From the NCBI RefSeq assembly GCF_900095265.1, contig NZ_LT607662.1, positions 101,910-165,909 on the forward strand: a stretch of 64,000 nucleotides of DNA, given 5' to 3'. The position numbers were made by a program, and so were the translations under genes. A model generated the notes under the pieces. The model saw only the letters and a program-made list of their open reading frames with translations. It did no database searches and was not told the origin of the DNA. The DNA comes from Janthinobacterium sp. UMAB-56 (lineage in GTDB: Bacteria > Pseudomonadota > Gammaproteobacteria > Burkholderiales > Burkholderiaceae_D). Positions 28,221-44,321 of the stretch are shown in pieces; position 1 is the first letter of the stretch, and each line of letters starts with the position of its first letter.

Positions 28221-28235
28221 CACTACGAGTTCACC

Positions 28236-29459
28236 ATGGCCATCACCCCGCTCAGCGAAGCTACCCCATCCTCCACGACAGGCGGCGCCGCGCCCTGGCA
28301 TGCCCGCCACGCCGTCTGGCAACTGGGTTTCCGCCCGTTTTACCTGTTGGCGGCCGTGTTTGCGGCCATCAGCATTCCCCTGTGGCTGGCCAGCTATGCC
28401 GGCTTGCTGGCCGATGGCATGCACGTGGGCCTGGGCTGGCATATGCATGAGATGGTATTCGGCTTCGCGCTGGCCGTCGTCGTGGGCTTTTTGTACACGG
28501 CGGGGCGCAACTGGACGGGCTTGCCCACGCCGCACGGCGCGCAACTGATGGCGCTGGTGGCGTTGTGGCTGGCGGGGCGCGTGGCCATGCTGTGCGGCGT
28601 CGGCCTCCTGGCAGCCCTGGTCGAGTGGCTGTTCCTGCCGCTGGCCGCCTGGCCCCTGTACCTGGTGCTGCGTCGCTCGGGCAATACGCGCAACCTGTTT
28701 CTGGTCGGCTTGCTGGCCCTGCTGGCGCTGGCCAATGGCCTGTTTCACGCGGCCGTGCTGGGCGTACTGCCGCTGTCGCTGTTCGTGCCAGTGCAGGCGG
28801 CCATCTTCCTCATCGTGCTGATCGAATCGGTGATCGGCGCGCGCGTGATTCCCATGTTTACGCGCAATGGGGCGCCCGATATCAATCCCAATCGTACGCC
28901 CGTGGCCAAGCCTGAGCGGGCGCTCGTGGCCGTGGCCTGCATGGCGGCGGCTGCGATTGCCTGGCTGGCAGGCGCGCCAGCGTGGCTGACGGCGCCGCTG
29001 GCTTTCTGCGCTGCCGGCGTCTCGCTGTCCAATATGCTGGCCTGGCAGCCGCAGCGCACCTTGCGCGTGCCGCTGCTGTGGATCTTGCACCTGTCGTATG
29101 CGTGGATAGGCGTCGGTTTTGCGCTGCTGGCGGCCGCCAGCCTGGGGCTGCTGCCGGCCAGCGCCGCGTTTCACGCGCTGACGGTGGGCTCGATGGCGGG
29201 TCTGATCATCGGCATGATGACGCGTACTACCCTGGGACACACAGGGCGCCCGCTCCAGGGCGGCAGGGCGGAAACGGCGATGTACTGGCTGATCCAGCTG
29301 GGCGCGCTGGCGCGCCTGCTGGCCGCCGTCGGCCCCGCCGCGCTGGCCATGCCGCTGTTGCTGGCAGCGGGTGCCTGCTGGTCGCTGGCCTTTGGCCTGT
29401 ATGCCTACGTGTATGCGCCGTATCTGTGGCGCGCCAGGGTGGATGGCCGCGAAGGCTAG
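28236..29459 (+). CDS. nnrS: NnrS family membrane protein
   Basis: The 407-residue protein has about 12 hydrophobic helices and the NnrS marks WQLGFRPFYLLAA, GWHMHEMVFGFALAVVVGFL, ARVIPMFTRNG and GLIIGMMTRTTLGHTGRP. NnrS is a heme- and copper-associated inner-membrane protein linked to tolerance of nitric oxide and nitrosative stress. Its placement after narXL suggests protection against NO arising from nitrite. Its ribosome site is weak (GAG, 8 nt before the ATG). It is convergent with the kinase cluster. Confidence 0.94.
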   Translation: MAITPLSEATPSSTTGGAAPWHARHAVWQLGFRPFYLLAAVFAAISIPLWLASYAGLLADGMHVGLGWHMHEMVFGFALAVVVGFLYTAGRNWTGLPTPHGAQLMALVALWLAGRVAMLCGVGLLAALVEWLFLPLAAWPLYLVLRRSGNTRNLFLVGLLALLALANGLFHAAVLGVLPLSLFVPVQAAIFLIVLIESVIGARVIPMFTRNGAPDINPNRTPVAKPERALVAVACMAAAAIAWLAGAPAWLTAPLAFCAAGVSLSNMLAWQPQRTLRVPLLWILHLSYAWIGVGFALLAAASLGLLPASAAFHALTVGSMAGLIIGMMTRTTLGHTGRPLQGGRAETAMYWLIQLGALARLLAAVGPAALAMPLLLAAGACWSLAFGLYAYVYAPYLWRARVDGREG

Positions 29460-29466
29460 GCGGGCG

Positions 29467-29592
29467 TCAGAAAGGACGCCAGGCCAGCAGTTTTTTGATG
29501 TCCGGCGCCCAGTAGGAAAGCGATTCGGCCACGACGAATAGCAGCATGCCCAGCATGAAGGCACGCAGCAGCAAATCCCTGAGCCAGATCAT
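29467..29592 (-). CDS. 41-residue single-helix membrane peptide
   Basis: A short frame starts at an ATG with a good GGGAGA site 5 nt upstream and encodes a 41-residue peptide: MIWLRDLLLRA, then the hydrophobic stretch FMLGMLLFVVA, then ESLSYWAPDIKKLLAWRPF. One membrane helix (about residues 7-24) is expected. It lies 33 nt after the large hybrid kinase gene on the same strand, so it is probably the last cistron of that operon. It ends 7 nt from nnrS, which converges on it. I do not recognise the family. Confidence 0.6.
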   Translation of the reverse strand: MIWLRDLLLRAFMLGMLLFVVAESLSYWAPDIKKLLAWRPF

Positions 29593-29625
29593 AGTGTCTC
29601 CCAAATTTTTATATTGACAAGTTTA

Positions 29626-32600
29626 TCATTGGCATGCCCGGCCATGTTGCGTTTCCGGCATCGCCGGCTGGCCGGGCGGCGGCGTCTGTGCCGTGAAGGC
29701 GCTGACGGCATCGATGGCGTGCGCCAGCGCCTGTTCCAGTGTGTCGAGGGCTGCTGCGGCATCGTCGCCGGCGTGCAGCAGCTGTTCGGCTTGCTGGGCC
29801 GCCTGCAGGGTGGCGGGCAGGGCCAGGCTACCGGCCACGCCGGCCAGCTTGTGCGCCAGCGCGGCGGCGTCGCTGCGGGCATTGGCCGCCAGCAGAGCGC
29901 GCATGGCGCCGACCGTGTTGCGGTAGGTGTCGCGAAAGCGCGACAGGTGCTGACGGTAGGGCGCTTCATCGAGCCATTGCGCCATCCCTTGCGCCAGGTC
30001 GATCGCGGGCGCCGCACCGTTCGGCGGCACGCGCGTCGTCCCTTCGTCCATGGGTGGTGGCAGGGCCGGCAAGCCTTGTGCATGGCGCCGGTGCGCGCGC
30101 GCGATCAGGGCGATGGTCTGCGGCACGTCGAACGGTTTGCTGATGAAATGATTCACGCCCGCTTCCAGTGCCGCCGTGCGCTGGGTCTGGAAGGCGCCGG
30201 CCGTCAGCGCCACCACGGGCAGATCCTGAAACTGCGGCAACTGGCGCAGCGCGCGCGTCGCTGCCAATCCATCCATGACGGGCATCTGCACATCCATCAG
30301 CACGATGTCGACATCGGCGGGGTGGGCCAGCAGCCAGTCCAGCGCTTGCTGGCCATCGCAGGCGAACGAGGGCAGGGCACCCTGGTCGCACAGGATATGC
30401 TTGACCACATCGCGGTTGATCTCGCTGTCGTCGACCACCAGCACGCGCACGCCGGCCAGCTGGCGTTCTTGCAGCGAACCGGAGCTGGCGTCCAGGCCGG
30501 CGGCCCTGGCGCGCTGCTGGCGCGCCTCCATTGTGGCGTTGTACAGGCTGGAAGCCGTCACCGGTTCGTTGAGGATGGCATCGGTCGGATCGGCCAGGTC
30601 AGTATGGCGCCGCGCTGGCCGCGTGGCTGGCACGTCGCTGGCCGCCAAAATGACGACGGGGCAGTGCTGCGGTGGCAAGTACTCGCGCAGCGCGCGCGCC
30701 GTGGCTACGCCGTCCAGCTCCGGCATGCGCGCGGCCAGCAGGACGACGCCGGGCCGCGCGTCCTCGGCGCAGGCCAGCGCATAATCGAGTGCAGCCTGGC
30801 CGCCGGACACGGCATGCACGCTCCAGCCCAGGCCCCGCGCCACGGCGCCCACCGCTTCGCGCGTGCCAGCGTTGCTATCGGCCAGCAAGACACGTAGGCC
30901 CTGCAGGCCCTGCATGTCGGGCGAGGACAGGGCACCGGCGGGCAGTCGTTGCAGCGGCACCGTGAAACTGAATGCGCTGCCCTGGCCCAGGCCGCTTGTC
31001 AGGTGCAGGCTACCGCCCATCAGGCGCACCAGTTGGCGGCAGATGGTCAGGCCCAGGCCCGTGCCGCCGAAGCGGCGCGTGGTGGAGCTGTCGGCCTGGG
31101 CGAAGGCGGAAAAGATCGTTTCCTGCACCTCGGGGGCGATGCCGATGCCCGTGTCGCGCACGCAAAAGCGCAGCACCGCAGCGTCGCCGTCGCGGCTTTC
31201 CAGCGTGCTCAACAACTCGACTGTGCCCTGCGGCGTGAACTTGATGGCATTGCTGCCCAGATTGACCAGCACCTGTTCCAGCCGCAGCGCGTCGCCCAGC
31301 ACGTGGTCGATGCCATCGGGTAGCGGTCCGATCCGCACGTCGATGGGCTTGTCGTGCGCGGCAACGCCCATGCTGGCGGCAATCTTCTCGATCACCTCGG
31401 CCAGGCGGAACGGCGCCTGCTCGATGCGCATGTGGCCCGCCTCGATTTTCGAGACGTCCAGCACGTCGTTGATGATGCCCAGCAGCGACTGCCCGGCGGC
31501 GCGGATCTTGCGCGTCATCTGCAATCCTTCCTCATCCTGGCTGCCTCTTTCCAGCAGCCAGGCCATGCCGAGGATGGCGTTGAGCGGCGAGCGGATTTCA
31601 TGGCTCATGTTGGCGAGGAATTCCGCCTTGCTGCGGTTGGCCGCTTCGGCGGCATCGCGCGCCAGCAGCATGGCCGCCTCAGCCTGCTTTTGCGCGGAAA
31701 TATCCTGGGCAAAGATCAAGGTGGCCGGTCCATCCTTGAGCATCACGCGCGTGCTGGTCTTGAGGGTGGGCACTGGCCTGCCTTGCTTGTCCAGTCCGAC
31801 GGCTTCAAACATCTGTTCGCTGGCAGAATCGGCCTCGATCAGCGCTTCGTTACTTGCCAGCGCAACTTGCGAGGCGGCCGTGAGCATGGCGCGCCAGGGC
31901 AGGCCGCTCAGGTCGTCCTCGGGGGCGTAGCCATGCAGGTGGCGGTAGCGCGGATTGGAATACACGAAGCGCCCGTGGCGCAGGATGGCGATGGCCACGG
32001 GTGCATCTTCGATCAAGGTGCGAAAGCGCGTTTCGCTGTCGGACACGGCTTGCATGGCCTGGCGCGTCCTTTCCTGTTTCACCTGCCAGGCAGCTTGCTG
32101 CCGGCGTCGGCGCTGCCGCCAGAACAGCAGGCTGGTCCCGGCCAGGGCCAGCGTGGCAAAGGCGAGGATGTAGCCCAGTGCCTGTCGCTGCAGCGGGGCG
32201 GCGATGGCCGCTTCCTCGCGGCTCAGGCCGATGATCAGGGCGCGGTCCATATGCAGTGCGGCGGGGGCGATCCTGGCCATCGCCATGACGCGCGGCGTGC
32301 CGGCGCCGGCAATCTCGACACCGCTCAGCACACCCGCCTGATAGCCGCTGTCGCGGAAGCGCCGCAGGAAACTGCCAGGGACGTCGACATTGCCACCATT
32401 GGCGCTCCTGGGCGGATAGTTCAGGAATTGCCGGCCGTCGCCATGCAAGACCACGGCCCAGACATCGGCGGCATACATGGCGGTGCGGAACTTGGCCGTG
32501 AAGTATTCGGGGTCGAAGGTGGCCACCACGACGCCGGCAAAGCGGCCCTGTTGGTCCTGTACCATGCGTGCCGCCGTGATGACCAGGTCCCGCTTGAAGG

Positions 32601-33069
32601 TCAGGAAAGGCGCCGAGATGTACAGCATGCGCGCGTCAGGGGCGTCGCGCGCCGTCTGGAAATAGGCGCGGCGCGAAAAATCCTGGCCCGCCAGTTCCGC
32701 GATGTTGGTGGCGACCGGCTTGCCTTTCGCATCGATGACCAGTATGGTGCGTACGCCCGGCATGGCATCGACCAGCGCGGCCAGGCGCCGGGGCAGGGCT
32801 TGCCCTGCGTCGGGCGCGGCGCCAGCGGCGAGATAGTCGCGGATCACGCCGCCGAGCACCAGGTTGGTTGCCTCCAGGTCGACTTCGATATTTTTTGCCA
32901 GCAGCGCCGTCAGTACGCTCAGCCGCTCGCGTTCGGCCGCGTCATGCCGCTCCGCTTCCGCCAGATGTGTGTAGGCCAGGGCGGCAGCCACGATGAGCAG
33001 CCCGAGGAGAAAAAACAGCCATTCGATCCATTCTCTGCGCACCGCTGCTGCATCTGTGTGATAGCTCAT
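29626..33069 (-). CDS. CACHE-PAS hybrid histidine kinase with two receivers and an Hpt domain
   Basis: The 1147-residue inner-membrane kinase has, in order: helix 1 (about 17-35), a periplasmic double-CACHE sensor (about 40-295), helix 2 (about 298-317), PAS (about 340-460), HisKA with His490 (MSHEIRSPLNAILGM), ATPase (GTGLGLTIC), receiver 1 (about 725-845), receiver 2 (about 873-990, acceptor Asp926 in VLMDVQMPVMDG) and Hpt with His1073 (AHKLAGVAGS). Receiver 1 is degenerate: the acceptor position is Ala779 (VVLLAARMPELDG) and the conserved Lys is Glu835 (ILNEPV), so it cannot be phosphorylated in the usual way. The His490-Asp926-His1073 route remains intact. No strong ribosome site precedes the ATG; a GTG/ATG further out is not excluded. 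Confidence 0.93.
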   Translation of the reverse strand: MSYHTDAAAVRREWIEWLFFLLGLLIVAAALAYTHLAEAERHDAAERERLSVLTALLAKNIEVDLEATNLVLGGVIRDYLAAGAAPDAGQALPRRLAALVDAMPGVRTILVIDAKGKPVATNIAELAGQDFSRRAYFQTARDAPDARMLYISAPFLTFKRDLVITAARMVQDQQGRFAGVVVATFDPEYFTAKFRTAMYAADVWAVVLHGDGRQFLNYPPRSANGGNVDVPGSFLRRFRDSGYQAGVLSGVEIAGAGTPRVMAMARIAPAALHMDRALIIGLSREEAAIAAPLQRQALGYILAFATLALAGTSLLFWRQRRRRQQAAWQVKQERTRQAMQAVSDSETRFRTLIEDAPVAIAILRHGRFVYSNPRYRHLHGYAPEDDLSGLPWRAMLTAASQVALASNEALIEADSASEQMFEAVGLDKQGRPVPTLKTSTRVMLKDGPATLIFAQDISAQKQAEAAMLLARDAAEAANRSKAEFLANMSHEIRSPLNAILGMAWLLERGSQDEEGLQMTRKIRAAGQSLLGIINDVLDVSKIEAGHMRIEQAPFRLAEVIEKIAASMGVAAHDKPIDVRIGPLPDGIDHVLGDALRLEQVLVNLGSNAIKFTPQGTVELLSTLESRDGDAAVLRFCVRDTGIGIAPEVQETIFSAFAQADSSTTRRFGGTGLGLTICRQLVRLMGGSLHLTSGLGQGSAFSFTVPLQRLPAGALSSPDMQGLQGLRVLLADSNAGTREAVGAVARGLGWSVHAVSGGQAALDYALACAEDARPGVVLLAARMPELDGVATARALREYLPPQHCPVVILAASDVPATRPARRHTDLADPTDAILNEPVTASSLYNATMEARQQRARAAGLDASSGSLQERQLAGVRVLVVDDSEINRDVVKHILCDQGALPSFACDGQQALDWLLAHPADVDIVLMDVQMPVMDGLAATRALRQLPQFQDLPVVALTAGAFQTQRTAALEAGVNHFISKPFDVPQTIALIARAHRRHAQGLPALPPPMDEGTTRVPPNGAAPAIDLAQGMAQWLDEAPYRQHLSRFRDTYRNTVGAMRALLAANARSDAAALAHKLAGVAGSLALPATLQAAQQAEQLLHAGDDAAAALDTLEQALAHAIDAVSAFTAQTPPPGQPAMPETQHGRACQ

Positions 33070-33117
33070 GTGGCGATGCTATACCCGATAGGCACGGAGA
33101 ACAACTTTTGTGCACAA

Positions 33118-34818
33118 CTATGCATGTGATAGTGTGGTCAATTTGCCGCCCAGCGGCAGGTGCAGGCGGAAGATGGCGCCGCAGCCCGGCGCGGAGCTCA
33201 CGCCGATGCTGCCGCCCATCAGGGCGACGAGCTGGCGCGCGATGGCCAGGCCCATGCCGGCGCCGTCATGGGGGCGGCTCGGCGAGTCGTCCGCTTGCGT
33301 GAATTTGTCGAAGATATCGCCCTGCCGCGCCTGCGCGATGCCGATGCCCGTATCGCGCACCTCGATCTGCAGGTCGGCGCCGCTGTGCCAGACGTGCACA
33401 TCGACCCGTCCCGTGGCCGTGTAGCCGATGGCGTTGTCGAGCAGGATATCGAGTACGCGCACCAGGCGGACGCGGTCGCAATCGATGCTGCGCGGTGTGG
33501 CGGGCGCAACGTGCGCCGCCAGTTGCAAACCCTTGTGGGCCGCGCGCGGCCGGTGCGGCGCCAGCGCCAGTTCCAGCAACTGCTGGAGTGGCACGGCGCT
33601 CGATTCAAGCCGCACCCGGTCGTGCTCGAGCGCGCTCAATTCCATCGCCGCCTCGATCATGGCCAGCAATTGGCGGCCGCTGCCCTGTATCGTTTGCGCG
33701 TAGGCGGCCAGTTCCGGCTCGCGCAGCTTTTCCAGCAGCAGCTCGGAGAAACCGAGGATGCCGTTCAGGGGCGTGCGCAATTCATGCGACATGTTCGACA
33801 GGAAGCGCGATTTGGCTTCGCTGGCGGCGATGGCCCTGGCGCGGCTGGCGACCAGGCGGCCGATCAGCAGCACCAGCGCAGCCCACGCCAGCACGATCAG
33901 CACGCTCGTGATGGCCGCCATCAGCAAGGCCTGGTTGCGGCGCGAGACATAGTCAGCCAATACGCTGTCGCGGCTCAGGCCAACCAGCATGTAGAGCGGG
34001 TAGCCGGCCAGTTTTTCGAATGCATAAAAGCGCAGCGTGCCATCGACGGGACTGCGCTCGCTGAAACTGCCCCGCGTGCCGCCGCGCATCAGGGAAAATA
34101 CCGTGCTGCCGGCGATATCCTGGCCGATGGTATTGACGGCGCCGACCCGGCGCGCGCGCACCACGCCATCGCTGCCGACGAGCGTGATGGAGCTGTTGTC
34201 GCCCAGGTCGACTTCGTCGTACAGGCGCGTAAAGTAATACGGGTCCATCGACACCACCACCACGCCCTTGAAGCTGCCATCGTCATGGTTGATGCGGCGC
34301 GTCAGCTGGATCGACCATTTTTTCGACACGCGGCCCAGCACCGGCTTGCTGATATACAGTTCGCCGCTGTCGTGCTGCATGTGGACCCGGATGTGTTCGC
34401 GGTCGGCCAGCTTGGTCGGCTTGAAGGGGCGGCTCGACAGTACCGTGTCGCCGTGTTCGTCGATGATGCTGAACAGGTTGTACAGTGGGCCGGGATTGAG
34501 GCCTTGCTGCAGGTCGGCCACGATGTCGAGGCGGCTGCCCAGGGCCTGGTAGCGGCTGCGCAGGTAGGTGGCCGCCTGGTCCGCCGCCTCGATCGTGCGG
34601 ATCGCGTGCTCGTCGAAGACGCGCGCCATGCTGCGCGCATCGCGCCCGGCGCTGGTGATGGCGGCGTCGTAGGCGTGCCGCAGTTGCAGCAGGGTGATGC
34701 TCCACAGCCCCGCCAGCAGGATGGCCACGAAGAGCGACAGCAGGGTGCGCGTATCCCAACCCTCCCAACGCTCCCAACGCTCCCAAGTCATGGCCTTCCA
34801 GTATCTGTCCATCCGCAT
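33118..34818 (-). CDS. CACHE-domain sensor histidine kinase
   Basis: The 566-residue kinase starts at an ATG after GCGGAG. The short cytoplasmic N-terminus contains WERWERWEGWD, encoded by a 9-bp tandem repeat, then helix 1 (about 25-46), a periplasmic double-CACHE sensor (about 50-290), helix 2 (about 297-323), HisKA with His345 (NMSHELRTPLNGILGF) and an ATPase domain (DTGIGIA, GAGMGLAIARQL). It has no receiver or Hpt domain and so needs a separate partner, perhaps one of the receivers or the Hpt protein nearby. The gene sits 48 nt before the large hybrid kinase and 150 nt after the next kinase, with a palindrome-rich spacer upstream. Confidence 0.92.
   Translation of the reverse strand: MRMDRYWKAMTWERWERWEGWDTRTLLSLFVAILLAGLWSITLLQLRHAYDAAITSAGRDARSMARVFDEHAIRTIEAADQAATYLRSRYQALGSRLDIVADLQQGLNPGPLYNLFSIIDEHGDTVLSSRPFKPTKLADREHIRVHMQHDSGELYISKPVLGRVSKKWSIQLTRRINHDDGSFKGVVVVSMDPYYFTRLYDEVDLGDNSSITLVGSDGVVRARRVGAVNTIGQDIAGSTVFSLMRGGTRGSFSERSPVDGTLRFYAFEKLAGYPLYMLVGLSRDSVLADYVSRRNQALLMAAITSVLIVLAWAALVLLIGRLVASRARAIAASEAKSRFLSNMSHELRTPLNGILGFSELLLEKLREPELAAYAQTIQGSGRQLLAMIEAAMELSALEHDRVRLESSAVPLQQLLELALAPHRPRAAHKGLQLAAHVAPATPRSIDCDRVRLVRVLDILLDNAIGYTATGRVDVHVWHSGADLQIEVRDTGIGIAQARQGDIFDKFTQADDSPSRPHDGAGMGLAIARQLVALMGGSIGVSSAPGCGAIFRLHLPLGGKLTTLSHA
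34754..34789 (-). repeat. 9-bp tandem repeat in a kinase gene
   Basis: Four adjacent 9-bp units (plus strand TCCCAACCC, TCCCAACGC, TCCCAACGC, TCCCAAGTC) encode the Trp-Glu-Arg/Gly repeats just before the first membrane helix of the kinase. Because the unit is a multiple of three, copy number can change without breaking the frame. Confidence 0.85.
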
Positions 34819-34887
34819 GCTGTCTCCGCAAGGTCTGCCCAGTTTGCCTTTGTGCGCGTATGCGCGGCGTCACTGGCGCGTTGATTT

Positions 34888-34926
34888 ATCAATTATAGTG
34901 AATATAATTGATTTTATCGAATAAAA
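34888..34926. promoter_or_regulatory. Palindrome-rich A+T spacer between two kinase genes
   Basis: The perfect inverted repeat ATCAATTATA-GTGAA-TATAATTGAT (34888-34912) is followed at once by TTTTAT-CGA-ATAAAA (34912-34926). The stretch is very A+T-rich inside GC-rich sequence. It lies 70 nt upstream of the 566-residue kinase gene. It may be an operator and promoter, or a bidirectional terminator for the upstream gene. Confidence 0.5.
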
Positions 34927-34968
34927 TGATTTTTTGTGGGGTGTGGTATGCAGTACGGCCCGGGGCGG

Positions 34969-37182
34969 CTAGCGCATTTCCGCCCTGTGTGCCAGCCAGC
35001 GCTCGACCATCGCGCGCAGCTGTACCGCCGTGAAGGGCTTGGACAGGTAGTCGTCCATGCCGGCCGCCACGCAGCGCTGCCGGTCGTCCTCGGTGACGCC
35101 GGCCGTGAGGGCGATGACGGGCAGGCGCGGCCCGCCGCAGGCCGCTTCCCGGGCACGCAGGGCCTGGCATGCCTGGTAGCCGTCCATGACGGGCATCATG
35201 CAATCCATCAGGACCAGGTCGTACTGTTGCGCGGCCAGGGCTTCAAGGCCCAGCGCGCCGTTCTCCGCCGTGTCGATGCTGTAGCCGCTGGCGCCCAGTT
35301 GCAAACACACCAGTTGGCGGTTCAGCGCCGTATCCTCGACCAGCAGGATGCGTGCGCCCGGCGCCGGCGCGGATGCAGTTAGGGATGCGGGTGCCACTGG
35401 CGCCGCTATCTCTGGCTCCGGCGCCTGGCCCGCCTGGCAGGGGAGGCGCACGGTGAAGCGGGAGCCGGCGCCGGGCGCGCTGCTGCAGGTGATCTCGCCG
35501 CCCAGCAGCGTCACCAGTTGCTGGCAAATGGCCAGGCCCAGTCCCGTGCCGCCATAGGCGCCGCTGATGCTGTCGTCGGCCTGGCAGAACGGCGCGAAGA
35601 TGCGGCTCAGCTGTTGGGCGTTCATGCCGATGCCCTGGTCGCTGACCATGGCGACGAGGCAGGCGCTGGCGCCGTCCGGCGTGGCCGGTGCCAGGTGCAG
35701 GCGCACGGTCACGCTGCCGAAGGGCGCAAACTTGATCGCATTGCTGAGCAGGTTGCCGAGGATTTGCGCGAGGCGCGTGCGGTCCGAGCAGATGTACCGT
35801 GGCACGCCGGGGTCGACCTCGGCCTCCAGCAGCAAGCCTTTCCGGTCCGCTGGCGCGCGGTGCAGCGCCAGCACGTCGTCGAGCAGCAGGCGCGGGTCGA
35901 AGTCGCGCAGCTCGATGCCCATCTGGCCTGCCTCGACCTTGGACAGGTCGAGGATGTCGTTCAGGATACGCATCAGCTGTTGCACGCCATCGCCGATGCG
36001 CTGTGCATGCTGCTGCTGCGTCGCATCGAGCGGGGTGTCTTGCAGCAGTTCGGCCATGCCGGCGATGCCTGCCATCGGCGTGCGGATCTCGTGGCTCATG
36101 ATGGCCAGGAAGCGCGACTTGGCCGCATTCGCCGCTTCCGCGCGCGTCTGCAACGCCAGCGCCATGGCCGCGTCGCGCTCCTGGCGCCGCAGCAGGGAAA
36201 GGATCAGCGCGACGGCCCCGGCCAGCACGAGCAGGCTGACCAAGGCCGCGCCGCCCATGGTGCGCAACATGCGCCGCCAGCCGGCCAGGTAGACCTCGTC
36301 CGTCACGGTCACGTTGACGGCCAGCGGGTAGTCGCGCACCAGGCGTATGGCGGCCAGCCGGGCGACCGTGCGGCCCTGTTCGGCCGCGCGTGGCAAGTCC
36401 ACCTGCAGCACGCCAGCGCTCTTGCCCTGTTCCAGCAGGCGGTAGGTACTGCCAGTGAGGTTGCGCTTGCCCATCATGGAGGGCACGGCCGGCCAGCGGG
36501 CCAGCAGCGTGTAGTCGCTGCGGTACAGGGAAAAGGCCGTATGTTCGCCGATACTGGTGCTCTGGAAGAATTTACTGAAGAAGTCGCACGACAGGCCGAC
36601 CAGTACCACGCCCAGGAAGCGGCCGTCCGGCCCGCTGATACGCCGGCTGATATAGAAGGTCCAGGCGCCATTGCCCTTGTTTTGCACGGGCGCGCTGACA
36701 TGCATGCCGCCATCCGGGTGCCGCCGGTGATACTCGAAGTAATCGCGCTCGTCGAGGCGGATGGGGGGCACGGGAAAGGCGCGGCTGAAGGCCAGCACGG
36801 TCGCATCGGCGCCGACGATGGACACCACGTCCACTTGCGGCACGCCGCCGATCTTGTGCAGCAGCCTCTGGTGCATGGCCGGGGTGGCAACGGCGGTGGC
36901 CAGCGCGGCCGCGTCCGCAGGGGCAGCAGCCTGGATGTCCTTGCTGACGCTGTCGAGCACCAGGCTGGCCGCCGTCATGCTCTGCGCCGTGTTTTCCGCC
37001 AGCAGCAGCGACAGGTTGGACAGGTCCTGTTGCCAGTCATCGACGGCTTCGCGGTGCAGCAGCACGCCGGAAACGACGATGCCCAGTGCCAGCAGGCCCA
37101 CCAGCACCAGGCCCACCACGGCTGCCGTGCTGCGCGGCCGGTAGCGGTGTAGCAGGCGCAGGGCGGCCCGGCGCGCGTTCAT
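34969..37182 (-). CDS. CACHE-domain hybrid histidine kinase with one receiver
   Basis: The 737-residue kinase has helix 1 (about 20-42), a periplasmic double-CACHE sensor (about 50-295; DERDYFEYHRRHPDGG is typical), helix 2 (about 310-332), HisKA with His364 (IMSHEIRTPMAGIAGM), ATPase (GTGLGLAICQQL), a Pro/Ala linker (about 585-608) and a receiver with acceptor Asp660 (VLMDCMMPVMDG) and Lys in LSKPF. Its start overlaps the Hpt gene by 4 nt (ATGA), so the two are coupled and the free Hpt protein is the likely phosphotransfer partner of this receiver. Confidence 0.93.
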   Translation of the reverse strand: MNARRAALRLLHRYRPRSTAAVVGLVLVGLLALGIVVSGVLLHREAVDDWQQDLSNLSLLLAENTAQSMTAASLVLDSVSKDIQAAAPADAAALATAVATPAMHQRLLHKIGGVPQVDVVSIVGADATVLAFSRAFPVPPIRLDERDYFEYHRRHPDGGMHVSAPVQNKGNGAWTFYISRRISGPDGRFLGVVLVGLSCDFFSKFFQSTSIGEHTAFSLYRSDYTLLARWPAVPSMMGKRNLTGSTYRLLEQGKSAGVLQVDLPRAAEQGRTVARLAAIRLVRDYPLAVNVTVTDEVYLAGWRRMLRTMGGAALVSLLVLAGAVALILSLLRRQERDAAMALALQTRAEAANAAKSRFLAIMSHEIRTPMAGIAGMAELLQDTPLDATQQQHAQRIGDGVQQLMRILNDILDLSKVEAGQMGIELRDFDPRLLLDDVLALHRAPADRKGLLLEAEVDPGVPRYICSDRTRLAQILGNLLSNAIKFAPFGSVTVRLHLAPATPDGASACLVAMVSDQGIGMNAQQLSRIFAPFCQADDSISGAYGGTGLGLAICQQLVTLLGGEITCSSAPGAGSRFTVRLPCQAGQAPEPEIAAPVAPASLTASAPAPGARILLVEDTALNRQLVCLQLGASGYSIDTAENGALGLEALAAQQYDLVLMDCMMPVMDGYQACQALRAREAACGGPRLPVIALTAGVTEDDRQRCVAAGMDDYLSKPFTAVQLRAMVERWLAHRAEMR

Positions 37183-37541
37183 GCCTGCGCGCCCGTGTAG
37201 TCAAGCATGCTGCGGCGTACTTCCTGCTCCACAGCGTCGATCAGCGCTGCCGTTTCGGCCAGCCAGCCCGCTGCCGCCACGCCCTGGTGGCGCACCAGCT
37301 GCTCGAGTTCCGCCAGGCGCGCTACCAGGGCCCTGGCGCCCAGCAGGGCCACGGTGCCGCGCAAGGTATGGCAGCTATGCACGATGGCTTGCGCCGCACC
37401 GCTGCTTACGGCTTGCTGCACGCGCGCGAACATGGCTGGCGATGTGTCGAGGTAGGTCTGCGACAGGGCGCGGAACAGCTCAAGGTCGTGGCCGGTGGCC
37501 TGGAACAGCACGGCAGGATCGATGTGGCGATAAGCTGGCAT
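37179..37541 (-). CDS. Free-standing Hpt phosphotransfer protein
   Basis: The 120-residue helical protein starts at MPAYRHIDPAVLF after CGGAG. The Hpt motif is HSCHTLRGTVALLGA, with His58 as the expected phospho-acceptor. It lies between the HTH-receiver gene (33-nt gap) and the hybrid kinase it overlaps, so the inferred route is kinase to its receiver, to this Hpt, to the HTH response regulator. It is soluble, with no signal peptide. Confidence 0.87.
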   Translation of the reverse strand: MPAYRHIDPAVLFQATGHDLELFRALSQTYLDTSPAMFARVQQAVSSGAAQAIVHSCHTLRGTVALLGARALVARLAELEQLVRHQGVAAAGWLAETAALIDAVEQEVRRSMLDYTGAQA

Positions 37542-37575
37542 GGCGGCTCCGTGGCAAGGGAAAATGGGTGGCGGG

Positions 37576-38202
37576 CTAGGCGGCCAGGCTGTTGCGCCGC
37601 GCATGGCCGGCGCAGCACGCGCGCAGATAGCCGCGCAGCTCGTCGTAATTGACGGGCTTGGCAAAGAACACCACCCCGGGCGGCACGCCGCCGCGCTCTT
37701 CCAGTTCCTCCGGCGTCAGGCTCGACAGCATGGCGATGTGCATGTCCGCCAGCAGCGGGTCGGCCAGGATGGTGCGGATCACCTCGTAGCCGTCGATGCC
37801 TTCCATGATGATGTCGGCCAGCAGGATGTCGGGCTGGTCGCGGGTAATTTCTATCAGCGCCTGGTAGCCGTTTTCGCAAAAGCGCAAGTGCGCCTGCAAG
37901 CCCCATGAGCCGATCTGCTTTTCATACAGCGCGCGTTCGATCGGATTGTCTTCGATGACCAGGATGGAGGGCGGACGGCCCGATGCAGCAGGGCGGTTGG
38001 CCCGTGCCGCGCGCTGGTCCTGGCCTGGATGGCCGGGATTGCCCTTGTAGGCCTCGACGGCCGCCAGGGGAATGCGCCGGTGGCCGCCCTTGGTCTTCCA
38101 GGCTTCGATCACACCCGCCTCGACCAGTTGCTGCACCGATGTCACCGAAATGCCGAGGATTTCGGCGGCTTTTTGAGTAGTGCAAACGTCTGCAGTGTGC
38201 AT
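37576..38202 (-). CDS. Response regulator with N-terminal excisionase-like HTH and C-terminal receiver
   Basis: The 208-residue protein has an unusual order for a regulator: residues 7-55 form an excisionase/MerR-like DNA-binding domain (TTQKAAEILGISVTSVQQLV, then WKTKGGHRRIPLAAVEAY), then a 25-residue linker, then a receiver (about 78-205) with acidic pair in VIEDN, acceptor Asp130 in LLADIIMEGIDG and Lys in FFAKPV. All key receiver residues are present. It is the only DNA-binding protein of the cluster and the likely transcriptional output; its targets are unknown. Confidence 0.9.
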   Translation of the reverse strand: MHTADVCTTQKAAEILGISVTSVQQLVEAGVIEAWKTKGGHRRIPLAAVEAYKGNPGHPGQDQRAARANRPAASGRPPSILVIEDNPIERALYEKQIGSWGLQAHLRFCENGYQALIEITRDQPDILLADIIMEGIDGYEVIRTILADPLLADMHIAMLSSLTPEELEERGGVPPGVVFFAKPVNYDELRGYLRACCAGHARRNSLAA

Positions 38203-38276
38203 GATGGGCTTTATGGTCGCGGATGAAGTTAACGGGAATGATACGCAATCGCGCTCAAAAAATCAATTTCAACGAA

Positions 38277-39191
38277 TTAGATGAATTCACTAAAAACCTG
38301 GGCAGCGGCGGGCCGGACTCTCGTGCGCGTGCGCCAGGCGTCGACACGGGCTGGCGGCTCCAGTATCTCGCGCCATTCGCTCCATTCGGCGTTGCTGTGG
38401 CGTAGCAGGGTTTCCATGTGTTCCGCGTCCAGGCCCAGCACCCGCGCGGCGGCCAGGGCCGGCCCGCGCGGCCCTGCGCCATTGCACAGTATCAGCTTGG
38501 CGAAGCAGCTGGCCAACTTCAGCAGCCAGGCCAGTTCCGTCATGCGTCCGGCACGCCCGATGCCGGGAGGCGCGGCATGGCAGCGCACGGCGTCGCACAG
38601 GATGTCCGGCATGCCCCAGTCCCGCATGAGGACGGCCGACAGCGCCAGCCGGTGGTGGCCGAAGCGTTGCGACTCCGCGCACAGCAGCCGTGCCCTGGCG
38701 GCTTGGCCGTACTGCCCCAGCAGTTGTCCATATTCCAGCGGATGCAAGGTGGCCAGGGCCAGTTGGCCGCAGTTGGCCAGCAAGCCGCAAGTGTATAGCT
38801 CATCGGCTGGCCTCAGCTGCAGCGCATCGCCTGCCACGCGGGCAGCGCACGCCATGGCCAGCGCATGCGACCAGTAGCGCTGCACGTCGAAGTGTGCACA
38901 CGAGGTCGCTGGCAGGGCCGGGGTGGCGAATGCCTGTTGCAATGCGGGCAAGCCGATGGCCGCCAGCATCGCCGCATTGACTGCCGCATGCCTGCGCTCG
39001 CCTGGTGGCACGGCGGCATTCGCCAGACCGATGACCTTGCCGGTCAGGGCCGGATCGCAGCCTAGTTGTTCTGCCAATTTATCGAGCGGCACCTGCTGCT
39101 GGCACCGGCTTGCCAGCCAGTCGCTCCGGCCGGCGGGCGACGGCAGGCTGGCGCCGTCGAGCAAGCGCGCCAGGTCGATGTGCGCGCTCAT
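38277..39191 (-). CDS. HDOD domain protein
   Basis: The 304-residue cytoplasmic protein carries an HDOD domain (about residues 15-215), seen in VPLDKLAEQLGCDPALTGKV, AAMLAAIGLPALQQAF, the YWSHALAMACAARV helix and ELYTCGLLANCGQLAL. HDOD domains resemble HD phosphohydrolases but lack the metal site and are thought to act as signalling scaffolds. The first residues overlap the end of the upstream gene (ATGA), so the pair is coupled. It connects the phosphorelay genes with the chemoreceptor gene. Confidence 0.88.
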   Translation of the reverse strand: MSAHIDLARLLDGASLPSPAGRSDWLASRCQQQVPLDKLAEQLGCDPALTGKVIGLANAAVPPGERRHAAVNAAMLAAIGLPALQQAFATPALPATSCAHFDVQRYWSHALAMACAARVAGDALQLRPADELYTCGLLANCGQLALATLHPLEYGQLLGQYGQAARARLLCAESQRFGHHRLALSAVLMRDWGMPDILCDAVRCHAAPPGIGRAGRMTELAWLLKLASCFAKLILCNGAGPRGPALAAARVLGLDAEHMETLLRHSNAEWSEWREILEPPARVDAWRTRTRVRPAAAQVFSEFI

Positions 39192-39829
39192 GGCTGGCTG
39201 CCTACGCCGCTGCGCTCATCGGCCAGCGCCGCGCCCGTTTGTAGCGCCGTGACGGCTTGCGACAGCGCATCGAGCGCGAACAGCAGTTCCGCATGCAGGC
39301 GGCGCAGCGCGCCGATATCGTTGGCAAAGCCCGCAAGCACGGCCTGGCGCGCCAGCTTCTGCAAGGGAAGCAGGCCCATGGCCTGGCTGCCGTCGAGGAT
39401 CTCTTGCGCCAGCACGCGCGCAGGAGCGGCCCGCTCGCAGCGCAGCGCATGGGCGATGCCGGCGAGGCGGTCGCGTGTTTCGGACACGAACAGGGCCAGG
39501 ATCTCGCCCTGCAGGCGCCGGTCGTAGCCGAACATGGCGTCCAGGCGGGCCAGCTCGAAGGGCAGCGTATCGGGCGCCTTGGGCGCTTGCTGGGGCGGTG
39601 CCGTCTGCGCTGCCTTGGCTGGCGGGGCCGCCTTGCGCATTTTCAGCAGCAGATGCAGATCGGACGGCGTGCCATCTGCAGCCGGGGCGCGGCCGGCCTG
39701 GCGCCAGCGGGTGCGGCGCCAGAGCAGGGCGGCCAGCAGCAAGAGCAAGCCTGCCAGTGCCAGCGCCGGGCGCATCAGCGAGAGATCTTCGCAGCGTAGC
39801 AAGGGGTGGATGGCGAGGAAGGCGTTCAT
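39188..39829 (-). CDS. Membrane-anchored Hpt-like protein without the phospho-acceptor histidine
   Basis: The 213-residue protein begins at an ATG after TGGAGC. One membrane helix (about 21-38) is followed by a basic stretch, a Pro/Ala-rich linker (about 45-88) and a helical domain (about 92-197) that reads like Hpt: MFGYDRRLQGEILALFVSET, then the motif region LAQEILDGSQAMGLLPL. Where Hpt proteins have His in a HTLKGS motif, this one appears to have Glu143 (QEILDGS). It would then be unable to pass phosphate and may act as a binding or decoy module. The domain call is by pattern only. Confidence 0.6.
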   Translation of the reverse strand: MNAFLAIHPLLRCEDLSLMRPALALAGLLLLLAALLWRRTRWRQAGRAPAADGTPSDLHLLLKMRKAAPPAKAAQTAPPQQAPKAPDTLPFELARLDAMFGYDRRLQGEILALFVSETRDRLAGIAHALRCERAAPARVLAQEILDGSQAMGLLPLQKLARQAVLAGFANDIGALRRLHAELLFALDALSQAVTALQTGAALADERSGVGSQP

Positions 39830-39878
39830 GGCAGTGCTCCAGTGCGGACTATGCGAGTGATGCTGCGTGATGGCAGGC

Positions 39879-41558
39879 CTAAAATACTTCCCAGTCGCCG
39901 GCATCGGCGGCGGCCGGCGCCTTGCTGCTGGCCTGGGCAGCGGGGCGCGTGGCGACCAGCTTGAGCGTGGTCTTGGGCTGCGTGGGCCGCGAGGCAGCAG
40001 GCGCGCGCGGTGCCGCACCAGCTGGGCCTTGCGCCAGCTTGAAGGTGGCCACCACGCCGGCCAGATTGCCTGCCTGCTCTTGCAGCGATTGCGATGCCGC
40101 CGCCGCTTCTTCGACCAGGGCCGCATTCTGCTGCGTGACTTCATCCATTTGCGTGATGGCGCGGTTGATTTCCTCGATGCCCGTGCTTTGCTCCACGCTG
40201 GCGGCCGAGATTTCGTTGACGATGTCGGTGACGCTGCGCACCGTGTCGACCACTTCCGTCATGGTCGCGCCGGCCTGCTGGACCAGCTTGCCGCCTTGCT
40301 CCACCTGTTGCACGGAGTCGCTGATGAGTACCTTGATTTCCTTGGCGGCGGCCGCCGAACGGTGCGCCAGGTTGCGCACTTCGGTTGCCACGACGGCAAA
40401 GCCGCGTCCCTGTTCCCCGGCGCGCGCCGCTTCCACGGCCGCATTCAGGGCCAGGATATTGGTTTGGAAGGCGATGCCGTCGATGACGCCGATGATGTCG
40501 GCGATTTTGTTGGACGAGCTGTCGATCGCTTGCATGGTGCGTATCACGTCGCCCATCACCTGGCCGCCCCGCTGCGCCTTGTCCGAGGCGCTGATGGCCA
40601 TTTGCTGGGCCTGGCGGGCATTGTCCGCGTTTTGCCGCACGGTGGCCGTCAGTTCTTCCATGGCCGAGGCGGTTTCTTCCAGCGAGCCGGCCTGCTGTTC
40701 CGTGCGTGCCGACAGGTCCAGGTTGCCCGCCGCGATCTCGCTCGACGCCGTGCTGATGGTGTCCGTGCCGGAGCGTACTTCGGCCACGATGCGCACCAGG
40801 CTCTCGCTCATCTCGGCCAGGGCGGTCATCAGTTGGCCCACCTCGTCATTCGAGCTGGCTTCGGCTTGCACGCTGAGGTCGCCGCCCGCGATGGTGCGGG
40901 CCACATCGATGGCGCTGGCCAGCGAAGCGGCGATGCGCCGCGCCAGCAGCAGACCCATGCCAGCCACCAGGGCCGTCACGGCCACGGCCAGGCCGATGGA
41001 AATCCAGCGCGCGCTGGCCGCGGCACCGGCGGCATCGGCCGCGCCCTTGTTGCCCAGGGTCTCGTTGTAACGGTGGTGGGCGGCGAGGGCGTCGACCAGC
41101 TCCTTGATGAGTGGCTGGCTCGCCATCAGCAAGTCGCGTGCCGTGTCGAGTTCGCCCGCCTTCGACAGCGCCAGCACCTTGTCGCGCACGCCATCGTAGC
41201 GCAGCAGCACGGCACGGTCGGCGGCCAGCAGCGCGCGGTCCTGGTCATCGGTGATCGCTTCTTTTTCATACTGGTCGAGCGCCTTGCCGACAGCCGCGCG
41301 CGCTTCCCTGATGCCCGCTTCCAGCTTGTCGCGCACGGCCGCATCCTTGTTGCCCATGTGCTGCCAGACGGCCGTGCGCATCTGCGCGAACGGCACGAAA
41401 GCCTGGTTCAAGATCAGCAGGCTGGGAATGGTGTTGAAGGTGGAATAGCTGGCTGCCGTGTACACGCGGTCCATCTGGTAGATGCCAAAGCCCGTGAGGG
41501 CGGCCAGCCCCAGGACGACGGAAAGGATCAGGGTGTACAGGCGTTGGGCGATAGTCAT
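39879..41558 (-). CDS. Methyl-accepting chemotaxis protein
   Basis: The 559-residue chemoreceptor has helix 1 (about 7-28), a four-helix-bundle ligand domain (about 35-185), helix 2 (about 187-210), HAMP (about 211-265) and a signalling coiled coil whose tip is [31 protein letters not shown]. The C-terminus ends GDWEVF, resembling the NWETF-type tether for CheR/CheB. It is the first gene of the minus-strand cluster, 49 nt before the Hpt-like gene, so the cluster may link chemoreceptor-type sensing with the phosphorelay. No cheA, cheW or flagellar gene is in the window. Confidence 0.95.
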
Positions 41559-41870
41559 GATGGGTGCCGGTCTAGATGAAGGTTGAAAATCGGGGAAATT
41601 GTTTTTCAGAGTTTATGATTTTTATTTTACGCCATATATTTGATTTATTCGAGAAATTTGTGATTTATTTGTTTTATTTTGTTTTTTGACGTGGCGCGCT
41701 GAAGGGCGAGCTGAGCGGGGGATGGGGTGTGATGAAAAGCAACACCGCGCAGATATCGCGTTCTGGCGTGTGCCACGTCAGGCCAATTAGTGAAAAAATG
41801 GGACTCCTTGATCACCATCAAATACGGTGCGCAGGCGCGTGCCGCCGACTGACTCTTGTGAAGGAGCATC
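41559..41870. other. Divergent intergenic region chemoreceptor / glucose dehydrogenase
   Basis: These 312 bp lie between divergent starts. Bases 41600-41690 are very A+T-rich, with T runs and repeated GATTTAT, and probably hold the promoter of the minus-strand cluster. I found no clear sigma-28 (flagellar) promoter and no supported open frame. Confidence 0.4.
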
Positions 41871-44321
41871 ATGACTGCCTCTGCCCGGCCTGGACCCTTG
41901 CTTGTCATCACTGCCGTCATCTTCATCTTGCTGGGCCTGGCGCTTGCCGGCGGCGGCGCCTGGCTCATCAGCCTTGGCGGTTCCTGGTATTACGTCGTGG
42001 CCGGCATCGGCATGCTGCTTACCGGCGCGCTGGTATGGAGGGAGCGGCGCCGCGCCCAGCTGTTTCTCGCGCTGCTGCTGTTCGCCACCTTGATCTGGTC
42101 CGTCATCGAAGTGAAGTTCGACTGGTGGCAATTGCTGCCGCGCCTCGATATCTGGTTCGCCGCCGCCGTCTGGCTGCTGCTGCCGTTCGTCGACCGGCGG
42201 CTCGATCCGCCATTGATGGCCGGGACAAAACCGCGCGACGCTGGCAAGAGCGCCCTGGCCGCCGCCGTGGTGCTGACGGCCGTCGTGGGCGTGTACTCGC
42301 TGTTCCAGGATTACTATACTTTGCACGGCGACGTGCCGGCCGAGAACATGGCTGCCGTGCCGCAAGGCGACTTTGCACCCGGCGTGGCGCCCAACGACTG
42401 GGCCGCATATGGTCGCTCCGGCTATGGCGACCGCTACGCGCCTGCCGCGCAGATCACGCCCGCCAACGCTGCGCAGCTGAAGCAGGCGTGGGTGTACAAC
42501 ACGGGCGACTTCAAGGGGCCGAACGACCCGGGCGAGATCGCCAACGAAGTCACGCCCCTGAAAGTGAATGGCATGCTGTATCTGTGCACGCCGCACAATA
42601 TCGTCATTGCGCTGGACCCGGACACGGGCAAGGAGCTGTGGCGCCACGATCCGAAGATCAACCGCGACGCCTCCAGCTACCAGCACATGATCTGCCGCGG
42701 CGTGGCCTACTGGGACGTCAACGCGGGCCGCGCCAAGGGCGACCCGGCGCCGCAGGCGGCCGGCATGGAGTGTCCGCGCCGCATTTTTGCGCCCACCATG
42801 GACGCCACCCTGATCGCCGTGAATGCCGACACGGGCGAAGCGTGCAAAAGCTTTGGCGACAATGGCGTGATCGGCCTGTATCACGGCATGGGCATGAAAA
42901 AGCGGGGCTTTTTGATGCCGACGTCGCCGCCGGCCGTGGCGCAGAACGTGGTGGTGATGGCCGCCAGCGTGACGGACAATTTTTCCACGGAAGAGCCGTC
43001 AGGCGTGATCCGCGGTTACGATCCCGTCACCGGCAAGCTGATGTGGAACTGGGATGCCTCGAACCCGGATGACACGGCGCCGATTGCCGATGGCAAGACC
43101 TATACCAATAATTCGCCCAATTCCTGGGGCGTCTCCAGCGTGGATGAAAAGCTGGGCATGGTGTACATCCCGATGGGCAATGAAACGCCTGACACGTGGG
43201 GCGGTAACCGTAATCCCCATGGCGAGAAATATAATAGCGCCATCGTCGCACTGGACCTGGCCAGCGGCAAGCTGCGCTGGGCTTACCAGACCGTGCACCA
43301 CGATATCTGGGACATGGATATCGGCGGCCAGCCGACCCTGGTCGACATCGACACGCCCAAGGGCAAGGTGCCGTCCGTGGTGGCAACCACCAAGCGCGGC
43401 GATATCTATGTGATCGACCGCCGCGATGGCAGCCTGGTGGTGCCGGCGCCGGAAAAAGCCGTGCCGACCGCCAACGCCGCACCCGGCGACCGTTTATCGC
43501 CCACGCAACCGTTTTCCGCCCTCACTTTCCTGCCCGAGAAAAACATCAGCGAAACGGATATGTGGGGCACGACGCCGTTCGACCAACTGGCGTGCCGCAT
43601 CATCTTCCGCCAGCACCGTTATGAGGGGCCGTTCACGCCGCAAACGGTGGCGGAAGGCAAGATCAAGGGCGCCATCATCTCGCCGGGTCCGCTGGGCATC
43701 TTCGAGTGGGGCGGCGCGGCCGTCGATCCGGTGCGTCAGTTGCTGCTGCTCAACCCCGACTACATGGGCTTTCTGGAACGCCTGGTGCCGCGCGCGCAAG
43801 CCGACGCGAAGGGCGGCACGGGCACGGAAATGGGCTTGCAGCCGCAGACGGGCGTGCCGTTTGCCGTGGAAATCAATCCCTTCCTGTCGCCGCTGGGCTT
43901 CCCATGCCAGGCGCCGCCCTGGGGCTACATCGCCGCCGTCGACTTGCGCACCATGAAAAAAGTATGGATGCACAAGAACGGCACCACGCGCGACAGCGCT
44001 CCCGTGCCCATCGCCTTGCCGCTGGGCGTGCCCAGCCTGGGCGGCATGAGCACCACGGGCGGTGGCGTGGCTTTCCTCAGCAGCACGCTCGACTACTACA
44101 TCCGCGGCTACGACGTGCGCAACGGCAAGACCGTATGGAAAGCCCGCTTGCCGGCCGGCGGCCAGGCCACGCCGATGAGCTATGTCTCCGACAAGACGGG
44201 CAAGCAATATGTGGTCGTCATGGCCGGCGGCCACGGTTCCCTGGGCACGAAGATGGGCGATAGCCTGGTGGCGTTTGCCTTGCCGGATGAGGCGGTGAAG
44301 GAGGCGGGGAAAGCGAAATAG
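41871..44321 (+). CDS. gcd: Membrane-bound PQQ-dependent glucose dehydrogenase
   Basis: Gcd oxidises glucose (and other aldoses) to the lactone in the periplasm and passes electrons to ubiquinone. The 816-residue size fits. The start follows GAAGGAG. Five hydrophobic helices occupy residues about 10-150. The PQQ beta-propeller follows: WAAYGRSGYGDRYAPAAQI, EVTPLKVNGMLYLCTPHN, then HHDIWDMDIGGQPTLVDI (about 475-492), which holds the expected catalytic Asp region, and GGGVAFLSSTLDYYIRGYD near the end. Gluconate production by this enzyme is a common cause of phosphate solubilisation. No pqq synthesis gene is in the window. Confidence 0.95.
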   Translation: MTASARPGPLLVITAVIFILLGLALAGGGAWLISLGGSWYYVVAGIGMLLTGALVWRERRRAQLFLALLLFATLIWSVIEVKFDWWQLLPRLDIWFAAAVWLLLPFVDRRLDPPLMAGTKPRDAGKSALAAAVVLTAVVGVYSLFQDYYTLHGDVPAENMAAVPQGDFAPGVAPNDWAAYGRSGYGDRYAPAAQITPANAAQLKQAWVYNTGDFKGPNDPGEIANEVTPLKVNGMLYLCTPHNIVIALDPDTGKELWRHDPKINRDASSYQHMICRGVAYWDVNAGRAKGDPAPQAAGMECPRRIFAPTMDATLIAVNADTGEACKSFGDNGVIGLYHGMGMKKRGFLMPTSPPAVAQNVVVMAASVTDNFSTEEPSGVIRGYDPVTGKLMWNWDASNPDDTAPIADGKTYTNNSPNSWGVSSVDEKLGMVYIPMGNETPDTWGGNRNPHGEKYNSAIVALDLASGKLRWAYQTVHHDIWDMDIGGQPTLVDIDTPKGKVPSVVATTKRGDIYVIDRRDGSLVVPAPEKAVPTANAAPGDRLSPTQPFSALTFLPEKNISETDMWGTTPFDQLACRIIFRQHRYEGPFTPQTVAEGKIKGAIISPGPLGIFEWGGAAVDPVRQLLLLNPDYMGFLERLVPRAQADAKGGTGTEMGLQPQTGVPFAVEINPFLSPLGFPCQAPPWGYIAAVDLRTMKKVWMHKNGTTRDSAPVPIALPLGVPSLGGMSTTGGGVAFLSSTLDYYIRGYDVRNGKTVWKARLPAGGQATPMSYVSDKTGKQYVVVMAGGHGSLGTKMGDSLVAFALPDEAVKEAGKAK

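Follow-up and report, generated by a model that had tools for sequence, protein, structure and literature searches.

The question raised by this locus is whether the nine genes on the minus strand at 29467–41558 of the window, a 64,000-nucleotide stretch of Janthinobacterium sp. UMAB-56 DNA analysed as a whole, form one signalling system in which several periplasmic signals converge through a shared Hpt step on a single DNA-binding output, as the initial annotation had proposed. All nine ORFs (A–I, Table 1) are present, and the compact codirectional layout described there was recovered, with 4-nt overlaps at B/C and E/F and remaining gaps of 33, 34, 48, 49, 74 and 150 nt. A promoter-like element lies inside the 74-nt gap between C and D, and a single transcript for the cluster is therefore not required. 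Domains were assigned with Pfam, which gave no family above the cut-off for B and I, and Rfam gave no match in 29000–42000. The gene content agrees with the earlier inventory, except that the start positions of E and I are 37541 and 29592, that the predicted Hpt fold of B has no His, and that the first receiver (REC) of H is without its phospho-Asp. The placing of several CACHE sensors beside one DNA-binding output is borne out by dCache domains in F, G and H and by HTH_17 plus Response_reg in D; dCache_1 is below the Pfam gathering score in all three kinases (E 7.6e-9, 4.9e-11 and 5.8e-11, respectively), and in G dCache_1_like is above its cut-off.

Table 1. Features of the cluster, in window coordinates.
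Feature	Position	Strand	Description	Basis
A	39879..41558	-	559-aa 4HB-HAMP methyl-accepting chemoreceptor (4HB-HAMP-MCP signal)	Pfam
B	39188..39829	-	candidate pseudo-Hpt with TM anchor; Hpt fold predicted, Glu143 at phospho-His place	
C	38277..39191	-	HDOD-domain protein	Pfam
D	37576..38202	-	208-aa response regulator, BldC-like HTH_17 + receiver; proposed output	Pfam, BldC alignment
E	37179..37541	-	120-aa Hpt protein, His58	Pfam
F	34969..37182	-	CACHE hybrid kinase: dCache + HisKA + HATPase + REC	Pfam
G	33118..34818	-	CACHE histidine kinase without REC: dCache + HisKA + HATPase	Pfam
H	29626..33069	-	CACHE-PAS-HisKA-HATPase-REC(Asp-less)-REC-Hpt kinase	Pfam
I	29467..29592	-	41-aa single-TM peptide	
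pD operator candidate	38265..38287	-	three AATT, 9- and 10-bp spacing; last overlaps -35	
pD sigma70-like promoter	38238..38266	-	TTGATT (38266-38261), 17 bp, TATCAT (38243-38238)	read from sequence
AT-rich island	41618..41700		precedes A, or B at sites lacking A; core AATTTCTCGAAT on the minus strand, 41658-41647	

Both the architecture of the cluster and its retention are established. Linkage was counted with custom-made profiles and score limits at 80 named loci, comprising 71 core loci and nine with distant relatives of D. Near D in the core loci the Hpt gene E is found 61 times, F 49 times and G 46 times, and E, F and G are near none of the nine distant relatives. Family-level absence gives a lower bound, with at most 21 candidates scored in each genome. 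The D-E-F-G linkage spans many genera with varying gene orders and flanks, and these genes are thus not scattered in the Oxalobacteraceae, the family in which a synteny check had been suggested; the recurrence of D-E(-F-G) there indicates that the gene set is not a chance grouping. D and E make up the constant pair, with F and G as the usual neighbouring CACHE sensor kinases and H, A, C, B and I as optional or lineage-limited additions. The idea of signals converging through a shared Hpt fits this linkage of D with an Hpt gene and one or two CACHE kinases in many genera. The conserved HisKA His, hybrid receiver Asp, Hpt His and output receiver Asp are all there in every aligned row.

The nine genes as one indivisible system did not survive the comparison, A, C, H and I being present at some sites and missing at others. 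At the 25 matching Janthinobacterium sites D is always present (a D match is absent in 9 of 40 congeners), followed by E (24), I (22, including three kinase-free sites), A (18), G (17) and C (full at 14, partial at 2, absent at 9). The kinase-free sites belong to three species that retain B-D-E-I only and have no close counterpart of the F or G sensor elsewhere, so that E and D there need an unlinked partner or act unphosphorylated. The proposed HDOD branch is optional, and an HDOD gene 33–37% identical to C adjoins D in four Pseudoduganella/Burkholderiaceae loci. No CheA or CheW was found by Pfam among the nine genes, and the receptor stands alone. A-like matches of at least 288 aa occur within the fetched stretch at 24 of 55 loci (L121–L175), with a query that includes the general MCP signalling domain; 14 genomes carry 4–60 MCP genes each, and the density in the own genome predicts about 14% per 20 kb. 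The chemoreceptor branch is only suggestive, because many of the loci share one ancestral arrangement.

D has the strongest constraint among the cluster genes measured (dN/dS 0.06–0.07; less constrained, at 0.18, in the three species without a linked kinase), and its receiver residues Asp130, Glu84, Asp85 and Lys182 are kept in 31 of 31 aligned loci. A MerR-like wHTH with a GGHRR wing is found by Pfam HTH_17 and by a weak alignment to the BldC structures 6amk/6ama (E 0.2–0.3); with its receiver attached, D falls outside the small wHTH-only BldC type. Regulators with a BldC-like HTH and a receiver are common in Oxalobacteraceae, and no study of such BldC-like or excisionase HTH regulators was found in the open-access library searched. 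The phospho-His of E is present in all 28 aligned loci, three of the 31 giving no data. In H, where the same 31 loci were considered, Ala replaces the phospho-Asp of the first receiver in 21/21 aligned sequences, with the second receiver keeping its Asp in 23/23 and the Hpt domain its His in 24/24.

Gene F is repeatedly trimmed. It is kinase-complete at 13 of the 25 Janthinobacterium sites, a CACHE-receiver protein without kinase at 6, a bare receiver at 2 and absent at 4, which means that the kinase is lost and the receiver retained at 8 sites. Janthinobacterium sp. LM6 carries the CACHE-receiver form and J. lividum HSC-65S10 a bare receiver. All 21 retained F receivers keep the phospho-Asp, indicating that F probably works in trans; the eight species with a kinase-less F receiver all have a complete H, and four of them have G. 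The two bare receivers (L080 and L086) have differing joints and an intact Asp, and are single-domain response regulators. On the F tree the kinase trait changes five times, and well-supported branches force at least two of these changes; among 200 bootstrap trees there is none with a single change. Trees of four flanking genes conflict with those of single cluster genes, which indicates recombination; the count of kinase losses therefore rests on the F tree, and could be inflated by recombination. Nothing on kinase-less hybrid forms was found in the open-access library searched.

The promoter stretch of D is also seen in congeners, and its AATT repeats match what would be expected for a BldC-like HTH, making it a candidate operator. 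That both AT-rich islands are instead ordinary promoters or silencer sites of the H-NS type, and not D operators, is somewhat unlikely; they do precede genes, with 31–35% GC (31% over 41600–41710) in a cluster of 67% GC, and the exact AATT pattern is loose outside Janthinobacterium, with smaller spacing excesses at 8, 12, 22 and 30 bp and an exact 9/10-bp pair at just 17 of 45 thinned loci, where related loci are not independent. The sharp peaks at 9–10 and 18–21 bp nevertheless exceed local composition (28 pairs at 9–10 bp, against a mean of 1.9 and a maximum of 6 in 500 block shuffles), and BldC sites are built of nine-base AATTXXXX(C) units in the portion of the BldC report drawn on here (PMC5859096). 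The pattern common to both islands has three occurrences across the 6.1-Mb genome, against one for the reversed control, and two of the three are the islands from which it was derived; the third occurrence of the narrower pattern (L192) has no obvious partner gene downstream and was taken as chance. As a regulon finder the AATT triple was rejected, with five distinct places genome-wide (nine strand matches) against four control strand matches; for the four places besides pD the flanking reading frames were listed. The second rival concerns B, which by its predicted model is a pseudo-Hpt, with the Hpt helical-bundle fold and no phospho-accepting His. The His place was located from the Pfam register and a near gap-free span to HptB, whose phospho-His is His57, and it holds Glu in 120 of 120 homologues among the matches listed, so that phosphotransfer by B, a step in the initial annotation, is unlikely. 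We find it unlikely, too, that B is just a generic bundle of helices with no kinship to Hpt domains, a view favoured by the Pfam Hpt scores of the B family (below the cut-off, E<1 in 19 of 24 members, best 0.0084), by the Foldseek search with the B model (none below E 0.001, best 3.7e-3) and by the chance high scores typical of helical bundles. Neither hhalign nor a profile search against the E family gave similarity, which also speaks for a generic bundle, and a derivation of B from E was not shown.

Two further rivals concern the cluster as a whole. It might be degenerating in Janthinobacterium, the trimmed F genes being remnants on their way out, as the progressive gene losses across sites would allow, together with the site broken between D and the H tail (L085), the interrupted CACHE frame of F in L092 and an F receiver somewhat more relaxed after kinase loss (dN/dS 0.28 against 0.18). 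Decay is rather improbable, with the Asp, acidic pair, Thr and Lys of the F receiver conserved in 26/26 aligned sequences (of 31 loci), pN/pS of 0.24–0.40 in five pairs (0.24 in the bare-receiver pair), and with neither bare receiver having lost the start or the 4-nt overlap with E. In addition, 16 of the 120 matches listed, from 849 homologues, are protein clusters of the CACHE-REC form, the largest with 35 members (in each protein search the 8000 candidates sharing most words were scored and 120 matches listed). Improbable to a similar degree is that independent two-component genes have gathered here and that D is mainly served by unlinked kinases; the three species holding D-E without a linked kinase, and the inconstancy of A, C, H and I as companions of D, would suit this, while the linkage of D-E-F-G in many genera despite differing orders and flanks argues against it.

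The reading we consider probable is a plug-in multi-sensor phosphorelay, autoregulated and with a pseudo-Hpt modulator, in which phosphotransfer and DNA binding are deduced from sequence and domain content. Periplasmic ligands would be sensed by the CACHE domains of the three kinases F, G and H. Phosphate from HisKA would pass to the F receiver, supplied by F as well as in trans by the receiver-less G and by H, and also to the second receiver and Hpt domain of H. E would carry it onward to Asp130 of D, and phosphorylated D would bind AATT-type direct repeats of 9–10 bp period at its own promoter and ahead of A/B, so that the cluster is proposed to be chiefly autoregulated. B would carry no phosphate and would most likely bind the same receivers, acting as a competitor or as a tether to the membrane; the Asp-less receiver of H may be a docking or regulatory domain, and kinase-less F could be a CACHE-gated or free acceptor supplied by H or G. 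More tentative is the specific proposal of a relay with its own membrane-anchored, His-less pseudo-Hpt whose hybrid kinase has repeatedly become a periplasm-gated CACHE-TM-REC protein fed by sister kinases; if true, CACHE-TM-REC would be a sensor working on the acceptor and not on the kinase.

The cluster bears on the open question of how partner exchange among kinases, receivers and Hpts goes together with specificity. Related species retain the switch and its carrier and repeatedly lose or trim the sensors, a natural dissection of relay rewiring. At one chromosomal site, matched natural variants range from the full kinase through the CACHE-receiver and the bare receiver to the lack of any kinase, with an output that is strongly conserved, which makes cross-phosphorylation and the role of the pseudo-Hpt directly testable, and the cluster supplies a candidate operator for regulators with a BldC-like HTH and a receiver.

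Among known systems, Vibrio LuxN/LuxQ-LuxU-LuxO is a multi-kinase phosphorelay through one Hpt. CckA-ChpT-CtrA is another, in the part of the account considered (PMC12471899). The likeness to both lies in sensor kinases, a single Hpt hub and one DNA-binding receiver; here the output receiver is preceded by a BldC-like HTH, the sensors are linked and repeatedly trimmed, and a pseudo-Hpt is encoded in the cluster. Streptomyces BldC, in the excerpt used (PMC5859096), shares with D the MerR-like wHTH with GGHRR wing and, on the side of D as a candidate operator, the AATT-type direct repeats of a nine-base unit, whereas it has 68 aa and no receiver, and its Lys26 and Arg30 base contacts are not kept in D, where Thr21 and Gln25 take these positions. 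The receiver of 3cnb ('DNA-binding response regulator, merR family'), which by title has a MerR-type output, matches the D profile (E 6.5e-9), the match being confined to the receiver. Plant pseudo-HPts such as AHP6 are Hpt proteins without the His, and plant TM-HPts combine Hpt with a membrane helix; B is bacterial and unites both features, and homology is not claimed. Aspartate-less receivers, in the section of the source drawn on (PMC4395418), resemble the first receiver of H in the Ala at its phospho-Asp site, but the latter sits in a hybrid kinase and is followed by an intact receiver and an Hpt domain.

The nine genes of the cluster are all located on the minus strand, flanked by nnrS and a PQQ dehydrogenase gene, here named gcd, and follow each other 5' to 3' as A (MCP chemoreceptor), B (small TM protein), C (HDOD), D (HTH_17-REC regulator), E (Hpt), F (CACHE-HK-REC), G (CACHE-HK), H (CACHE-PAS-HK-REC-REC-Hpt) and I (41-residue TM peptide). 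The genome is 6.1 Mb in size, and the nearest named relatives at the locus, among the best 80 of 228, are Janthinobacterium. The adjoining region 16873–29459 of the window contains nitrate reductase genes, a moaA-type gene, a narX/narL-type pair and nnrS; narX, narL and nnrS travel with the cluster in congeners.

Features of the cluster and its flanks in the window
Feature	Position	Strand	Remark
nnrS	28236–29459	+	flank of cluster
AATT repeats (candidate D operator)	38265–38287		last repeat overlaps promoter
pD promoter			TTGATT-17-TATCAT, upstream of D; overlapped by last AATT repeat
gcd (PQQ dehydrogenase gene)	41871–44321	+	opposite flank of cluster

At least 47 of 145 genomes of the family have a match to D at E≤1e-15, a lower bound since at most 21 candidates were scored per genome. 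In 40 stretches of 15.8–19.9 kb each, taken from genomes with such a match, E and F are linked to D, often G as well, with varying flanks, and some D relatives are solitary. A search of genome contigs confirmed 228 D relatives; the best 80 were kept, and 71 of these score as core D with a profile made for this analysis, the remaining nine being distant relatives. Near core D, E is found at 61 loci, F at 49, G at 46, E and F together at 46, all three at 38 and none of them at six; without the Janthinobacterium set 54 core loci are left, and the corresponding numbers are 45, 36, 36, 33, 29 and five. All three are absent near D in the nine distant relatives among the best 80 of 228. The order is D-E-F-G in Janthinobacterium and D-G-E-F in Duganella, Rugamonas and Herbaspirillum. 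Given this family-wide linkage with differing gene orders, the gene set is a real module and no chance neighbourhood. Four loci of other Oxalobacteraceae genera (L060, L070, L071, L073) have D-like regulators, 33–41% identical to D, adjoined by a different kinase and in part by ORFs of great length (about 1,600 residues); they form a distinct subfamily that has partners of its own.

An H-like kinase (56% over about 808 residues) adjoins D on the opposite strand in three Massilia-type loci (L158, L161, L163), and a HDOD gene 33–37% identical to C adjoins D divergently in four Pseudoduganella/Burkholderiaceae loci (L129, L130, L132, L141), thus H and C are not strictly limited to the genus. The divergent neighbours suggest an older HDOD-D association. 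In Herbaspirillum (L153) a HDOD gene 36% identical to C is located a few kb from D. B is found in Janthinobacterium alone among the named protein matches listed, and I in congeners alone among the 40 stretches, where the shortness of the peptide makes the test weak. Record P0226, from a eukaryote source, looks like a B-C (pseudo-Hpt-HDOD) fusion and is very probably bacterial contamination.

D is present in 31 of 40 congeners, and the locus was read in all 31 (the window and 30 others). nnrS adjoins 25 of them, and among these 25 sites gcd is detected on the far side in 24 (in L081 as no more than a fragment) and not at L091. The other six are located elsewhere (L044, L098, L099, L100, L101) or on a 3.5-kb contig (L102). 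At the 25 sites B and D are always present, E in 24, I is detected in 22, H is complete in 21, A is present in 18 and G in 17, and C is full in 14 and partial in two. F is complete in 13 (including L079 and L093, counted from the site survey and missed by the motif filter), reduced to CACHE-REC in six (L039, L040, L042, L087, L089 and L092, where an interruption breaks the N-terminal frame) and to a bare REC in two (L080, L086), and missing in four. Three species (L095, L096, L097) have B-D-E-I and nothing else of the cluster, and a search of these genomes for F and G gave no close sensor elsewhere, the best matches having 28–30% identity. In L085 unrelated sequence separates D from the tail of H and so breaks the cluster, with nnrS, I and gcd still in place; one stretch of its B copy is altered.

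Several kinase-less F come from one- or two-contig assemblies, such as the complete chromosome of L039. Among the best 120 of 849 protein matches to F there are 16 CACHE+REC proteins without HisKA/HATPase, and all those with an organism name are Janthinobacterium. On a tree of 45 listed proteins, 15 of them kinase-less, the kinase label requires five changes (4–6 in bootstrap trees, a single change in 0 of 200), and the starred branches force at least two; recombination may be among these changes. In kinase-less P0275 a remnant of the HisKA box seems to survive at the joint. The joints of the two bare receivers differ, which makes two separate losses of the CACHE domain probable. The phosphorylation residues of F-REC are all kept in the 26 aligned loci (of 31). 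Its dN/dS is 0.28 in species whose F lacks the kinase and 0.18 in those that have it, where the kinase domain shows 0.44. As all eight species with kinase-less F have an intact H, and four have G, we read F-REC as probably working in trans.

After 69 loci had been reduced by similarity to 45, their stretches upstream of D showed 28 AATT pairs spaced by 9–10 bp against a mean of 1.9 and a maximum of 6 in 500 block shuffles, with more peaks at 18–21 bp and a lesser surplus at 8, 12, 22 and 30 bp; 17 of the 45 have an exact 9/10 pair. A second AT-rich island is located upstream of A, or of B where A is absent (23 sites read). The motif AATTNNTCNAAT is common to both islands in 17 of 22 non-minimal sites, occurs at one or more islands in all 22, and is found upstream of B in one of the three minimal sites. 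Its extended form occurs three times genome-wide (reversed control one), two of them being these islands; since the motif was derived from the same sites, this count shows specificity and is no independent test. L089 (near 10320) and L042 (near 10313) have an additional copy on the other strand, by offset in the F-G gap. We infer that D would autoregulate the cluster, by activation or by repression.

REC1 of H has Ala in place of Asp in 21 of 21 aligned sequences, REC2 has Asp in 23 of 23, and the Hpt domain His in 24 of 24. D shows a dN/dS of 0.06–0.07, which rises to 0.18 in the three species without any cluster kinase. In the best reading of these sequences, the CACHE kinases F, G and H would signal to E through F-REC and H-REC2/Hpt, E would pass phosphate to D, which would then act on its own cluster, and B would be a competitor for receivers or a receiver tether.

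The HTH of D aligns to BldC structures 6ama/6amk, GGHRR wing included, as a weak match (E 0.2–0.3), but has Thr21 and Gln25 where BldC has Lys26 and Arg30; the BldC repeat is given as AATTXXXX(C) in PMC5859096. Multi-sensor phosphorelays are a known kind. A BldC-like receiver output combined with an encoded membrane pseudo-Hpt (predicted fold) and recurrent kinase excision sparing sensor and receiver was not found described in the open-access literature searched, and is to our knowledge a new combination.
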